Positions 10,442-16,096 of a DNA stretch of 40,140 nucleotides are shown one piece after another. Every line of letters begins with the position of its first letter. Position 1 is the stretch's first letter. The translations under genes and the position numbers were made by a program. The DNA is from a virus, in the IMG/VR virus record IMGVR_UViG_3300044692_000030, positions 1-40,140 of that record. One strand, given 5' to 3'. Below the pieces are notes generated by a model. That model saw nothing but the letters and a program-made list of their open reading frames with translations, was not told where the DNA came from and ran no database searches.

Positions 10442-11251
10442 TTAGCGGGCCTCTCCGGGCTCGATGAGGGTGGTCTGCGTGCCGATGGGCTCAGGCGCCG
10501 CGGCGAGCTCGAGCAGCGAGCCCTGCTGCCCCTGCGTCGCCGCCTCGGCGCAGCGGCGGCGCGCGACCTCGACGAAGTGCTCAGACATTTCGCACCCGAT
10601 GAAGCTGCGCCCCTCGAGTAGGGCCGCCACGCCGGTCGTTCCCGAGCCGCAGAAAGGGTCGAGGACTACCCCCCCCCTAGGAACAATCCGCATCAGCGAC
10701 TGCATGACCTCGACCGGCTTCTGCGTGATGTGCTCGCGCTCCCGCGGAGGCGAGGCCTGGTAGAAGCCGGGCAGCGCGGCGCCGTCGAGCGCGAGCAGGT
10801 CGCGCGGGCCGTTGGTCCCCCATACGACGTACTCGCAGGAGTTGGCCCACCGGCCCTGCACCGGACGGCCGTTCGGCTTGTGCCAGGGGACGACGCCGCG
10901 CCACACCCAGCCGCCGGCCTGCAGCGCGTCGCTCGTCGCCGGCAGCTGCCGCCAGTCGGTGAACAGCGCAGCGACGCCTCCGGGCTTCACGATGCGCAGG
11001 CACTCGCCGAGCCACAGCGCTACCCAATAGCCATAGCTGCGCTGGTCGCGGCTGTCGCCAGTGAACGCGGCCATGGCGTTGCCGCTCTCGCTGTCGCTGT
11101 TGACGTACTTGGTGTGCACGTCCTGCTGACGGTCGCCGCGGAACATGCCGCCCGAGCTGTATGGCGGATCGGTGAGCACGGCGTCGACGCTCTCGCTCGG
11201 AAGTGAGCGGAGCACAGCGAGCGCGTCGCCGTGGTGGATCTCATAGGTCAT
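10442..11251 (-). CDS. DNA adenine/cytosine-N4 methyltransferase, beta class
   Basis: This 269-residue protein transfers a methyl group from SAM to the exocyclic amine of adenine or cytosine. The catalytic DPPY is at about residue 28, followed by the variable target-recognition region. The SAM-binding motif VLDPFCGSGTTG lies near residue 197. The order catalytic motif first, SAM motif last defines the beta class. WVALWLGECLRIVKPGG in between is a family signature. The start at 11251 overlaps the upstream stop (ATGA). A run of nine G (10669-10677) encodes RGGV just before the SAM motif and is in frame here. No matching restriction enzyme is seen. Protection from host restriction or regulation by methylation are the likely uses. 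Confidence 0.88.
   Translation of the reverse strand: MTYEIHHGDALAVLRSLPSESVDAVLTDPPYSSGGMFRGDRQQDVHTKYVNSDSESGNAMAAFTGDSRDQRSYGYWVALWLGECLRIVKPGGVAALFTDWRQLPATSDALQAGGWVWRGVVPWHKPNGRPVQGRWANSCEYVVWGTNGPRDLLALDGAALPGFYQASPPREREHITQKPVEVMQSLMRIVPRGGVVLDPFCGSGTTGVAALLEGRSFIGCEMSEHFVEVARRRCAEAATQGQQGSLLELAAAPEPIGTQTTLIEPGEAR
10669..10677 (-). repeat. Run of nine G just before the SAM-binding motif of the N4/N6 methyltransferase
   Basis: Nine C on the plus strand, read as G9 in the gene. The frame is intact across it (P-R-G-G-V then VLDPFCGSG). One base more or fewer would truncate the protein before its SAM motif. Confidence 0.9.
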
Positions 11252-11445
11252 GTGATCAGCCCGTCCCTTCTCGCCGCGTCCCACGCCTCGGCGTCGCGCT
11301 GCTGGCGCTCGCGCAGCTGCGTCTCGTCGAGCACGTCGTCGGCTCCGAGCACGGTGCCGCAGCGGAAGCACTCGGTCTCGTCCAAGCGGTCGTCGGTGAT
11401 GCGCGCGAGGCAGCGGGCGCAGTAAACGGGGGCGTCGTCGGTCAT
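11248..11445 (-). CDS. Small zinc-ribbon-like protein between two methyltransferases
   Basis: The start at 11445 overlaps the C5 methyltransferase stop (ATGA) and gives 65 residues. Two CxxC pairs (CARC at about 10 and CFRC at about 27) are spaced as in a zinc ribbon, followed by an acidic and then charged helix (RERQQRDAEAWDAARRD). It is coupled to both methyltransferase genes and could be an accessory DNA-binding factor, but no function is known. Confidence 0.6.
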   Translation of the reverse strand: MTDDAPVYCARCLARITDDRLDETECFRCGTVLGADDVLDETQLRERQQRDAEAWDAARRDGLIT

Positions 11446-12398
11446 GCGGCTACCGGGCCTCCGAGCGCGATCCACGCGAGCGCCGCCGTGAGCGGGACTT
11501 GCCCGTTACCTTCTCCTTCCAGGCAAGCCGAGCGGAAAGCGCGCGTGCGGCGGTTGCCCGGTCCATCTCGAAACTGAGCAGGGGCCAGCACATCAACCAC
11601 GCGACCCACTCGTGGTTCAGCGCTCCACCAGCCTGGGTAGCCAGCCCGTCCCCGGCCTTCGCCGAGCACCCCGCGCGGTTGTTGTTGCCCTTGACCGTCG
11701 GCGTTGCCCAGGTCCTCGCCGCCAGCCCCAGAGATGGATTCCCGCGGCTGAACTTGGTCGGCCCCTTGGTGCCGTCCGACGCTAGCGGCGTCGGCCACAT
11801 CACCGCACCCGCTAGATTCCTCGTCGCCTTCGCTCCCGAGAAGCGCGTCCCGCCAGGCTGCGGTCCCGCGATCCCGTCGCTGCGCATCGGTGTCGGGAAG
11901 CTCGGCGAGGCACCACCAGCGGTCGCGGATATGAGGAGCTCCGACAGCGGCAGCCGATAGCAGCGTCCATCGCGCATCGTACCCGAGCGCGGCCAGGTCC
12001 CGGAGAACCGTGGCGATGAACCCATTTTGGACCAGGCCAGGAACGTTCTCCAAGAACGCGAACCGCGGACGCACACCGCGAAGCACTCGGACGACGTCGG
12101 GCCAGAGGTTGCGTCGATCGCGCGCGCCGCGGCGCTTCCCGGCTTCGGAATGAGGCTGGCAAGGGAAGCCCGCATGCACGCAATCCACTCGGCCCGTCCA
12201 CGGGGATGGATCGAACAGCCGAACGTCTCCCTCGTGCACGTGCAGGGCGGGGAACCAGCCATCAGCGGCTCGCTCTCGCAGGACCTGGCAGCAGAAGGGA
12301 TCCCATTCGACGGCACAGACGGGCTCGTGTCCAAGAATGAGGTCTGCGTAGAGACCCCCCCCCGGCGCCGGCGAAGAGATGGAGGCTGCGCACGTCAC
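11442..12398 (-). CDS. C5 cytosine DNA methyltransferase, frame broken at a G9 run in motif I
   Basis: This frame from GTG 12398 (GTGA with the gene before) has 318 residues. Motif IV GFPCQPHSEAGKRRG carries the catalytic Cys at about 80. Motif VI is FLENVPGL, motif VIII is APHIRDRWW, and motif X is GNGQVPLTAALAW near the end. Motif I is missing in this frame, which reads AASISSPAPGGG. The expected RSLHLFAGAGGG is encoded from GTG 12393 in another frame and joins the main frame only if the run of nine G at 12355-12363 were eight. The gene is therefore a frameshifted, phase-variable or mis-sequenced C5 methyltransferase. A third frame over the C-terminal half also looks family-like (11450-12334). 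No restriction partner is seen. Confidence 0.85.
   Translation of the reverse strand: MTCAASISSPAPGGGLYADLILGHEPVCAVEWDPFCCQVLRERAADGWFPALHVHEGDVRLFDPSPWTGRVDCVHAGFPCQPHSEAGKRRGARDRRNLWPDVVRVLRGVRPRFAFLENVPGLVQNGFIATVLRDLAALGYDARWTLLSAAAVGAPHIRDRWWCLAELPDTDAQRRDRGTAAWRDALLGSEGDEESSGCGDVADAASVGRHQGADQVQPRESISGAGGEDLGNADGQGQQQPRGVLGEGRGRAGYPGWWSAEPRVGRVVDVLAPAQFRDGPGNRRTRAFRSACLEGEGNGQVPLTAALAWIALGGPVAA
12355..12363 (-). repeat. Run of nine G at motif I of the C5 methyltransferase
   Basis: Nine C on the plus strand. In the gene direction it follows GCCGGCGCC, which encodes AGA of LFAGAGGG in the GTG 12393 frame. With eight G the motif would continue into LYADLILG and the rest of the enzyme. 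With nine it does not. Confidence 0.9.
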
Positions 12399-12634
12399 TG
12401 CTCCCCCGCCGCCCTCGCCTGGTGATCCATCCGCAGCGCCATCTGCTCGGGCTCGGCCATGGCCTGGTTCAGCCGCTTCGCGATCAACTCGCAGTCATAC
12501 GGGGTCGCCGCGGCGTTGAGATGCGGCGGCAACGACTCGCGGACGAGCGCGGCCGACACGATCCCCTTCTGTCGCTTGAGCGCTTCCAACTGCGCGATGG
12601 CGGCGCGGGTTTGGCTGAGGAGCGGGGAGGTCAT
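12395..12634 (-). CDS. Small helical early protein, 79 residues
   Basis: A helical, soluble protein (LLSQTRAAIAQLEALKRQKG, LIAKRLNQAMAEPEQMALRM). Its start and stop overlap the neighbours (ATGA and GTGA). It lies directly upstream of the C5 methyltransferase and is translationally coupled to it. No family is recognised. Confidence 0.58.
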   Translation of the reverse strand: MTSPLLSQTRAAIAQLEALKRQKGIVSAALVRESLPPHLNAAATPYDCELIAKRLNQAMAEPEQMALRMDHQARAAGEQ

Positions 12635-13082: not shown

Positions 13083-13372
13083 GCCGTCAGCGTCTCCTGC
13101 ACCGCCGCCACGATGCGCACCGTGCGGACGGTCTTGCCCGTCACCGGGCACTCGATGTTGCCGGCCTCCTCAAGCGCGCCGATGTCCAGCAGATGATTGA
13201 TGCGAGGCCGCACCGCGTTGGGTTCCTGGTAGCCCATCCGCTGCATGATGGCGCGGTCGCTCATGGGGATGCCGGCCTCGCGCAGGACGCGGAGGATGGC
13301 CTGTTCGCGCGGGTTGAAGTCCGACGAGCGGAAGGCGGCGAGACTGTTCGCGTGCATCCGGTGCTTGGTCAT
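13079..13372 (-). CDS. Helix-turn-helix protein, 97 residues
   Basis: Residues 20-75 (NPREQAILRVLREAGIPMSD, RAIMQRMGYQEPNAVRPRIN, HLLDIGALEEAG) match a winged HTH that could act as a transcription regulator or replication accessory. The end (CPVTGKTVRTVRIV) forms the expected beta wing. The ATG overlaps the repeat protein stop (ATGA). Confidence 0.65.
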   Translation of the reverse strand: MTKHRMHANSLAAFRSSDFNPREQAILRVLREAGIPMSDRAIMQRMGYQEPNAVRPRINHLLDIGALEEAGNIECPVTGKTVRTVRIVAAVQETLTA

Positions 13373-14352
13373 TCCCGCTCCGCCGGCTTCATCTTCGACA
13401 GCTTCTCGGCGTACTCGCGCGCCTGCTTGGTCTCCTCGTGTTCGCCCTCGACCAGCTTCCCATCGCGGACGTGGTAGCGCTTGCCATTCTCGATGCCGTT
13501 CTCGCCGGTGTAGCCGACCGCCAGGCGCCAGCGCTTGTCGACCTCCGACCAGTAGCGGATGACGATTGCCCCCTCCTCTCCGGCCGACGCGGTGCCGAGG
13601 TCGCCCGCCGACGCGGTGCCGCGGTAGCCCGCCGACGCGGTGCCGCGGTAGCCCGCCGACGCGGTGCCGAGGTCGCCCGCCGACGCGGTGCCGCGGTAGC
13701 CCGCCGACGCGGTGCCGCGGTCGCCAGCCGACGCGGTGCCGAGGTCGCCCGCCGACGCGGTGCCGAGGTCGCCCGCCGACGCGGTGCCGCGGTAGCCCGC
13801 CGACGCGGTGCCGCGGTCGCCAGCCGACGCGGTGCCGCGGTAGCCCGCCGACGCGGTGCCGCGGTCGCCAGCCGACGCGGTGCCGCGGTAGCCCGCCGAC
13901 GCGGTGCCGCGGTCGCCAGCCGACGCGGTGCCGAGGTCGCCAGCCGACGCGGTGCCGCCAATGATCTTCCGGTCCTTGGCGGCGGGGTGCGCCTTGATGA
14001 ATGCCGTGGCGCTGGCCTGGTCGCCGCAATGCACCACCTCGCCGCGCGGGAACTTCACCTTGCCTCCGAGGTCGATGCACTCGGAGGCGAGCACGGACAC
14101 GACGAGCCACTTGCCGCCGTCGAAGTAGTTGCACGAGCAGTGGTCGCCTTCGCCCCACAGCCAGCCGTGCAGGCCGTTGCCGCACTCCTTGGTGGGCTTC
14201 CAATCCTTGGCCTCGACGGCGCCGGACTCGGGCCAGCGAAAGCCGTTCTGGCTGGTCATGTCGGCGCGGCAGAGGCGCAGGACGAGCACGCGCTCATCGG
14301 TCACGGGGGCGGCCTTCTTGGCGCGCGGCTTCTTGGTCTTGGACTTGGTCAC
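13369..14352 (-). CDS. Octapeptide-repeat (GTASAG) phage protein
   Basis: This 327-residue protein starts at GTG (GTGA with the gene before, GGGGAAG upstream). Residues 1-20 are Lys-rich. The N-terminal domain (LHGWLWGEGDHCSCNYFDGG, VLASECIDLGGKVKFPRGEV) belongs to a widespread phage family of unknown function. From about residue 133 there are 16 tandem octapeptides GTASAG plus DL, DR, YR or EE, as in pentapeptide-like beta solenoids. The C-terminal domain (VIRYWSEVDKRWRLAVGY, GENGIENGKRYHV) closes the solenoid. Repeats of this type in DNA-mimicking proteins are one precedent, but the role here is unknown. Confidence 0.75.
   Translation of the reverse strand: MTKSKTKKPRAKKAAPVTDERVLVLRLCRADMTSQNGFRWPESGAVEAKDWKPTKECGNGLHGWLWGEGDHCSCNYFDGGKWLVVSVLASECIDLGGKVKFPRGEVVHCGDQASATAFIKAHPAAKDRKIIGGTASAGDLGTASAGDRGTASAGYRGTASAGDRGTASAGYRGTASAGDRGTASAGYRGTASAGDLGTASAGDLGTASAGDRGTASAGYRGTASAGDLGTASAGYRGTASAGYRGTASAGDLGTASAGEEGAIVIRYWSEVDKRWRLAVGYTGENGIENGKRYHVRDGKLVEGEHEETKQAREYAEKLSKMKPAERE
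13583..13956. repeat. Sixteen tandem 24-bp repeats inside the octapeptide-repeat gene
   Basis: GCCGACGCGGTGCC recurs every 24 bases from 13583 to 13943, 16 copies. The other ten bases take only a few variants, encoding DL, DR or YR. Near-identity even at third codon positions suggests recent expansion or gene conversion. Confidence 0.95.
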
Positions 14353-15040: not shown

Positions 15041-16096
15041 TTAGATCTCCTCGCCGGCCAGCTGGCGCAGGGCAGCGATCAGCGGCTCGACCTTGCTGGA
15101 CGGCACTTCGTTGGGCTTGGTCACGTGGTCACCAGCCACCACTCGGATGCACTCCAGCGCCTGGTCGCGGCAGGTCGCGCTCTCGGCGCGCTTGAACGCC
15201 TCGGCGATGCGCTTGGCATCGACGGGCGCGCACAGCTTCGGCCCCTGCGGCAGCGAGTCGCGCACGGCGTCGAAGTTGGCCTTGGCCTGGCGCAGGTCCG
15301 CCGGCTTGGGCTCAGTCGTCGCCGTAGCCGCGGGGGTAGTGGTCGTGGGCTTCGCGTCCGTCGTAGCCTGGGCCGCGCCCTGCTTCTCGGCCTCGAACCG
15401 GGCGGCGCTCGCCATGAGGCGGTCGCCCGGCTGGCCGTTTCCCTGGGGCGCCTCCTCCTGGGGCTTCGCCAGTTCCGCGTTCTCGTCGATGTCCTGGGTG
15501 AACAGGTCGGAGGCCGCGCAGGCGGTGATGGTTGCGGCGACGTGCGCGCGCTTGGTCGCCATCTTGAGCACGGTGTTCCACTGGTCGGCGATGTCGGGGT
15601 TTTCGACCTTGCCGACCTGCTGCTCGGTGATGCGCTTGTCGTCGAGCGGGAACGTCGCGCCGCAGCCATCCTTCTTGGTCCAGCAGTAGAACTCGGGATC
15701 CCGCTTCGACTTCATCAGCGCCGGCTTGCCACAGGTCGGGCAGGTGCGGTCGGCGTTGCGGTAGCGGTACTTGCTCTCGTAGGTCGAGCAGGTGCCCAGG
15801 CCCTCGGCGATCAGCACGCCCGCGCGGTTGGTCAGCCGGCAGCGGACCTCGTACTCGCGGTGGTTGCGCTCGTAGTCCTGGCGCTTGACCTCGAAGTTCG
15901 GGACCAGCTGGAAGGTGAAGCACAGCTTCTCGGCGCCGGGCTTGAGCAGCGCCGGCTTAGTGCCGCAGCCAGGGACGACGCCGTAGTGCTCGCCATCCTT
16001 CATGACGTCGCGCATCACCTGCTGGATCAACTGCACCTGCGCGCTCACCTGCTCGGGCAGCAGCGCACCCTCGGGGACGATTAGTGGAGCGTTCAT
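15041..16096 (-). CDS. Conserved phage protein with zinc-binding site, probably recombination-associated
   Basis: The protein has 351 residues. The N-terminal domain has the motif KDGEHYGVVPGCGTKPALLK followed by PGAEKL, then a beta core and CPTCGKPALMK...FYCWTKKDGCGATFP, a four-Cys zinc site at about 119-148. ENPDIADQWNTVLKMATKRA closes the conserved domain. This family is common in phage early operons, often where ssDNA-annealing proteins lie. I recall the sequence pattern but not a proven activity. The Thr/Ala/Pro-rich linker at about 245-265 leads to a C-terminal helical region that may be an interaction domain. GGGAGGT precedes the ATG. Confidence 0.68.
   Translation of the reverse strand: MNAPLIVPEGALLPEQVSAQVQLIQQVMRDVMKDGEHYGVVPGCGTKPALLKPGAEKLCFTFQLVPNFEVKRQDYERNHREYEVRCRLTNRAGVLIAEGLGTCSTYESKYRYRNADRTCPTCGKPALMKSKRDPEFYCWTKKDGCGATFPLDDKRITEQQVGKVENPDIADQWNTVLKMATKRAHVAATITACAASDLFTQDIDENAELAKPQEEAPQGNGQPGDRLMASAARFEAEKQGAAQATTDAKPTTTTPAATATTEPKPADLRQAKANFDAVRDSLPQGPKLCAPVDAKRIAEAFKRAESATCRDQALECIRVVAGDHVTKPNEVPSSKVEPLIAALRQLAGEEI

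Follow-up and report, generated by a model that had tools for sequence, protein, structure and literature searches.

A run of nine G residues in motif I of a dual-coding phage cytosine-5 methyltransferase gene and poly-G tracts in its relatives

A 40,140-nucleotide stretch of viral DNA (IMG/VR record IMGVR_UViG_3300044692_000030; the whole stretch is hereafter called the window) encodes on its minus strand a cytosine-5 (C5) methyltransferase whose motif I contains a run of nine G residues. An earlier, sequence-only reading had proposed that this run breaks the frame of the enzyme and could be either a phase-variation switch or a sequencing error. What does the run interrupt, and does it represent a real and reversible state of the gene? 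Words of eight G are found 4 times in the window against 3.17 +/- 2.27 in shuffled sequence, which is within chance, so that a G9 in this GC-rich DNA is unsurprising; it is the place of the run and its family context that are informative, not the run by itself.

The lesion in motif I and the two frames of the window

The G9 run is located on the minus strand at 12363-12355, in the context ...TTCGCCGGCGCC-G9-TCTCTACGCAGAC..., within motif I of the methyltransferase frame, which we call alpha. The proposed break of this frame was confirmed. Motif I is read from GTG 12393, and the translation obtained (VRSLHLFAGAGGGS) meets a stop at codon 44, after 43 codons; the remaining elements of the enzyme, GFPCQ, ENV, APHIRDRWW and GNGQVP, all belong as assembled to the frame of GTG 12398, which continues to a stop at 11442. 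When the run is read as G8, RSLHLFAGAGGG is fused to LYADLILGHEP... without a stop (the junction reads VRSLHLFAGAGGGLYADLILGHEPVCAVEW), and motifs I, IV (PCQ), VI (ENV), VIII and X share a single alpha frame, whereas motif I stands apart in the assembled sequence. The nearest homologue (L002, 53% identity) has MRTAHLFAGAGGGLLADLILGH at the corresponding place, without a G run, in agreement with the earlier claim that one G fewer joins the two parts. The features of the locus, all on the minus strand, are as follows.

12395-12634, minus: upstream ORF of 79 aa; its stop codon and the beta start overlap
12396-12398, minus: beta start GTG (VTCAASISS...), overlapping the TGA of the upstream gene (12397-12395); position -23 nt as in L002, L036, L039, L073, L140 and L253
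12391-12393, minus: alpha start GTG, 18 nt upstream of the F of motif I, the distance usual in homologues, with GGAG 7 nt ahead of it
12355-12363, minus: G9 homopolymer in motif I; a G8 reading restores the homologous frames
12262-12393, minus: alpha as assembled, 43 codons and a stop (VRSLHLFAGAGGGSLRR...ASR*)
11442-12398, minus: as-assembled ORF of 318 aa, the first 14 codons of beta fused to alpha beyond motif I
11442-12354, minus: alpha frame past the tract, with motifs IV, VI and VIII, the TRD region and motif X (PF00145, E 6e-31; phrog_363, E 3e-55)
12156-12170, minus: alpha motif IV, GFPCQ
12042-12050, minus: alpha motif VI, ENV
11913-11939, minus: alpha motif VIII region, APHIRDRWW
11493-11510, minus: alpha motif X, GNGQVP
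11450-12354, minus: beta frame past the tract, open to its own stop (phrog_1008, E 2.6e-19)
11582-11620, minus: beta motif-IX-like segment, LNHEWVAWLMCWP (family consensus LNPxWVEWLMGWP)

The sequence-only reading missed that the gene is dual coding, that a slip in the run hits two proteins and that GTG 12398 belongs to the second of them. This second protein, beta, is read in the +1 frame and spans almost all of the alpha gene. In the G8 reading alpha (from 12393) and beta (from 12398, 315 residues) are both open end to end, and the alignment of beta to its family runs end to end starting from GTG 12398. In homologues the usual alpha start is 18 nt ahead of the F of motif I, and beta starts either at -14 (ATGAATGAGYTGGC, alpha MNELALF and beta MSWLF) or at -23, the position found in the window and in the six relatives listed above. 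In many betas an in-frame stop lies directly ahead of the -14 ATG, so that a start of their own is needed. GTG 12398, which had been described as a start that bypasses motif I, does read into the enzyme frame as assembled; because its position is homologous to the -23 start of these relatives, we assign it to beta instead. The sequence GGAG (12404-12401) precedes GTG 12398 by 2 nt and GTG 12393 by 7 nt. In the G9 state alpha ends at codon 44 and the first 14 codons of beta continue in the alpha frame, so that one event breaks both proteins. The third frame of the C-terminal half is also protein-like in the window translation (MWPTP..., LNHEWVAWLMCWP). No promoter or terminator was found near the methyltransferase gene, and a search for phage relatives via the head-tail adaptor returned one distant record only.

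Dual coding in the gene family and the role of beta

Dual coding was assessed in 30 dereplicated homologues retrieved solely through motif I or protein similarity, with the +1 frame unused in their selection, against a null model of 200 synonymous-codon shuffles of alpha. The +1 frame of these homologues contained 9 stops against 122 expected (3 before and 6 after motif VIII, against 74.9 and 47.3, with minima of 58 and 33 in the shuffles), and it was stop-free in 25 of 30 genes against 0.4 expected (maximum 3 in shuffles). The +2 frame was not depleted (133 + 186 stops against 157 + 177 expected). Past motif VIII the +1 frame is open and conserved in about 25 homologues (LNPxWVEWLMGWPxGWTDLKPL), and the +2 frame there is stop-rich. 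A scan by DNA pattern revealed 147 places, at 119 of which frame A encodes an intact methyltransferase with motif X and the +1 frame stays open over a long stretch, often equal to the enzyme in length; 47 further genes from this set showed 7 + 1 stops in the +1 frame against 118 + 84 expected. Beta of the window scored 221.9 bits with an HMM built from 75 nested betas, against 118.8 +/- 12.8 (maximum 160.8) in 300 synonymous shuffles that keep alpha (z 8.1). Second codon positions of beta coincide with wobble positions of alpha, so that beta is not conserved merely as a consequence of alpha. Dual coding of the gene, as computed here, is secure.

Apparently stand-alone beta genes were rejected as independent proof of a beta that occurs by itself, as they overlap a shortened alpha, and the HMM built from such betas was used solely with synonymous-shuffle controls. 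The same two overlapping ORFs occur in cultured phages (Acinetobacter ABMM1, Pseudomonas phPA-G, Salmonella S9-5, Vibrio 1.091.O and Microcystis Mel-JY01), and one Acinetobacter plasmid carries the same two frames. The CDS annotated in Vibrio phage 1.236.O and Pseudomonas phage phPA-G corresponds to beta. Two public phage records (L262, 1501-2229, and L385, 501-1199) list the beta frame as a hypothetical protein and leave the methyltransferase frame unannotated. The literature searched contained no papers on overlapping or overprinted phage methyltransferases. Overlapping methyltransferase gene pairs were known from a few cases, and the layout described here is common in viral contigs, where mostly alpha or beta alone is annotated and half of each enzyme is thus absent from the annotation.

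Alpha carries motifs I-VIII and X, and the motif-IX-like segment with the family consensus is found in beta. The C-terminal part of phrog_363 matches the motif-IX region of beta in two relatives (L154 and L159; E 8e-4 and 2e-4). Searches of beta against Pfam, NCBIfam and PDB gave nothing useful, and structure prediction of beta alone from the 91-sequence alignment was poor (pLDDT 56, pTM 0.25), a model that would be consistent with a subunit in need of a partner. The window copy of the motif-IX-like segment is divergent: Ala takes the place of a Glu conserved throughout the 91-sequence alignment (WVEW to WVAW) and Cys that of a Gly, and alpha of the window is likewise divergent on the approach to motif X. 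From the division of motifs we infer that the pair probably forms an obligate two-subunit C5 methyltransferase, both proteins being made and needed together.

The genes of the two-polypeptide C5 methyltransferase M.EcoHK31I of E. coli also overlap in different frames, the smaller lying within the larger. Of the two polypeptides, the larger is reported to contain motifs I-VIII and X together with the predicted TRD, and the smaller to contain motif IX (PMC3404938). Compared by reported layout, the likeness lies in this division of motifs between alpha (I-VIII and X) and beta (IX-like), whereas beta of the window starts within 5 nt of the alpha start and overlaps alpha over nearly its full length, the genes are phage-encoded and a G tract breaks both. 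A beta-like ORF nested in a C5 methyltransferase has been annotated by depositors as an internal gene in the Paenibacillus phages Diva (gp49/gp50) and Shelly (gp55/gp56), but there beta is shorter (~235 aa), starts inside the gene, and the longest G run is 5. The two frames of the window match the PHROGs families phrog_363 (alpha) and phrog_1008 (beta), both labelled DNA methyltransferase, which are separate families there and here are two frames of one DNA stretch. M.AquI is reported to be a split C5 methyltransferase with the break before motif IX, its catalytic and recognition parts residing on two polypeptides (PMC3404938). Five relatives (L154, L159, L209, L259 and L071), in which alpha ends after ~170-206 residues and beta contains both the motif-IX segment and motif X, have a layout closer to the M.AquI split, but with overlapping genes. 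The subunits of M.AquI are not known to be encoded with an overlap of such length. In four further relatives (L040, L069, L080 and L092) the catalytic half and the two C-termini are exchanged between frames in other ways, which were not seen to be linked to a long G run.

Poly-G tracts across the gene family

A set of 75 dereplicated genes, compiled without regard to G runs, contained 7 tracts of at least G9, where synonymous shuffles gave 1.3 (maximum 4); it had no C run of that length, and 648 kb of flanks held 3 G and 3 C runs. Three scans revealed three tract sites: motif I (22 contigs), after PCQDIS (51) and after motif VIII (57). The frame calls at the tracts are based on short motifs, and a few of the following assignments are possibly wrong. 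At motif I the lengths are G8-G10; the alpha frame is kept in 16 contigs, whereas the runs of L370, L367 and the window lie out of frame. After PCQDIS (G9-G17) alpha is read in 30 contigs and other outcomes in 19. After motif VIII (G10-G17) the catalytic half leads into alpha in 15 contigs, into beta in 13 and into neither in 22, the rest being unclassified. At the latter two sites the tract lengths cover all three frame classes. L370, with G10 in motif I, has the lesion of the window, its beta N-terminus continuing into alpha; in L288, with G9 after PCQDIS, alpha stops and beta continues into alpha, as in the window. After motif VIII, alpha remains complete at lengths 10 and 13 and is mostly cut short at 11 and 14; at 12 and 15 its catalytic half mostly continues into the motif-IX half of beta. 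Among L203, L204 and the 57 loci with this tract, the lengths 12 and 15 thus mostly yield a possible hybrid enzyme, in which the catalytic part comes from alpha and the C-terminus from beta.

Tract length also varies between nearly identical contigs. Flanks that are 100% identical over 820 nt accompany opposite frame states in L304 (G13) and L307 (G15), in L302 (G13) compared with L279 and L170 (both G15), and in L267 (G14) and L300 (G15); at the two sites other than motif I, frame class differs in 24 of 51 pairs with 98-100% identical flanks. At the motif I site no near-identical pair differing in length was found, nor a near-identical G8 relative of the window. Differences between metagenome contigs in long tracts may partly be assembly errors. 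Altered frames are also seen at shorter runs, namely the G9 of L288 and the G10 of L370. The tract excess, the length variation and the identical flanks with different frames suggest that the gene family probably undergoes poly-G slippage as a switch, in line with the earlier proposal of slippage, which is upheld for the family and falls short of proof for this particular G9. Homologues that lack a run and have an intact motif I, which the sequence-only reading had named as evidence against its proposal, make up nearly all of the homologues; they do not refute slippage, since the tracts occupy different sites in different lineages.

In phase-variable methyltransferases of Helicobacter and Campylobacter, one-base changes in a coding-region poly-G switch the frame (PMC12003011). 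The homopolymer tract in the coding region is the likeness; those genes are bacterial, whereas the present ones are viral and dual coding, so that a change in tract length can terminate one of the frames and redirect the other. We tentatively suggest that one tract might give several enzyme states by re-sorting pieces of alpha and beta, with the phage lineage varying its methylation against host restriction; if so, this phage locus would differ from bacterial contingency loci in consisting of two fully overlapping methyltransferase genes.

Readings of the G9 state and the neighbouring ORFs

The proposed explanation is that the locus encodes a phage two-subunit cytosine-5 methyltransferase with both subunits made from shared DNA, alpha from GTG 12393 carrying motifs I-VIII and X and beta from GTG 12398 (+1) supplying the motif-IX-like segment. 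Strand slippage would add one G to the motif I poly-G relative to the coding state; alpha would then stop after 43 codons, the 14 codons of beta would enter the alpha frame, and both subunits would be lost. Its likeliest biological reading would be a reversible on/off switch, since tracts recur and vary in length in the gene family. That the window's own G9 is a real and reversible off state of such an enzyme we infer with even confidence for and against, because motif IX of beta no longer has its invariant Glu, which points to decay.

This loss is also a ground for regarding the G9 as fixed, a one-base insertion having inactivated the methyltransferase at an early stage of gene decay; the replacement of Gly by Cys, the divergence of alpha near motif X and the failure to find a close relative with an intact version argue in the same direction. 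Against such decay, ~900 nt of either frame are stop-free, beta scores far above its synonymous-shuffle null and motifs IV, VI, VIII and X of alpha are intact, and we consider it rather doubtful. An error of consensus or assembly, with a true phage sequence of G8 and both subunits intact, is unlikely in our judgement but carries appreciable weight: both frames are fully open downstream of the tract, the G8 reading restores two independent frames together, and the source record is a virus contig of unknown coverage. Nine bases would be short for a consensus error of short reads, however, and out-of-frame runs of 8-10 G are present in L370, L367 and L288, where a shared artefact is possible in principle.

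Two further readings leave the assembled sequence functional as it stands. GTG 12398 could start a working 318-residue enzyme that lacks the beginning of motif I, nothing being broken; the ORF is open and the GGG of motif I is retained (SSPAPGGGLYADL), but in six relatives beta begins at this position, the N-terminal 14 residues align with beta and with no methyltransferase, the GGAG is just 2 nt away compared with 7 nt for GTG 12393, and the conserved F of motif I is missing, which makes such an enzyme very improbable. Programmed ribosomal frameshifting at the run, a plausible slippery site, could restore alpha in translation; nearly all homologues, however, join the frames in the DNA without a run at motif I, and the runs of other phages at this site (L021, L141, L185 and others) are in frame, so that we give frameshifting hardly any credence.

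Recurrent and length-variable G tracts suggest that phages may switch their DNA methylation randomly, as Helicobacter or Campylobacter do, and such switching, if true, would bear on phage escape from restriction. A second G9, in frame, is located on the minus strand at 10669-10677, a few codons before DPFCGSG of the adjacent N6/N4 methyltransferase (10442-11371), and is absent from the homologues in Gordonia phage Sidious (L389) and Mycobacterium phage Bernal13 (L390). Near the C5 methyltransferase gene, the minus-strand ORFs 13369-14352 and 15041-16096 match phage families of unknown function (phrog_18079 and DUF7666; phrog_10048, with a weak match to the restriction alleviation protein Lar).
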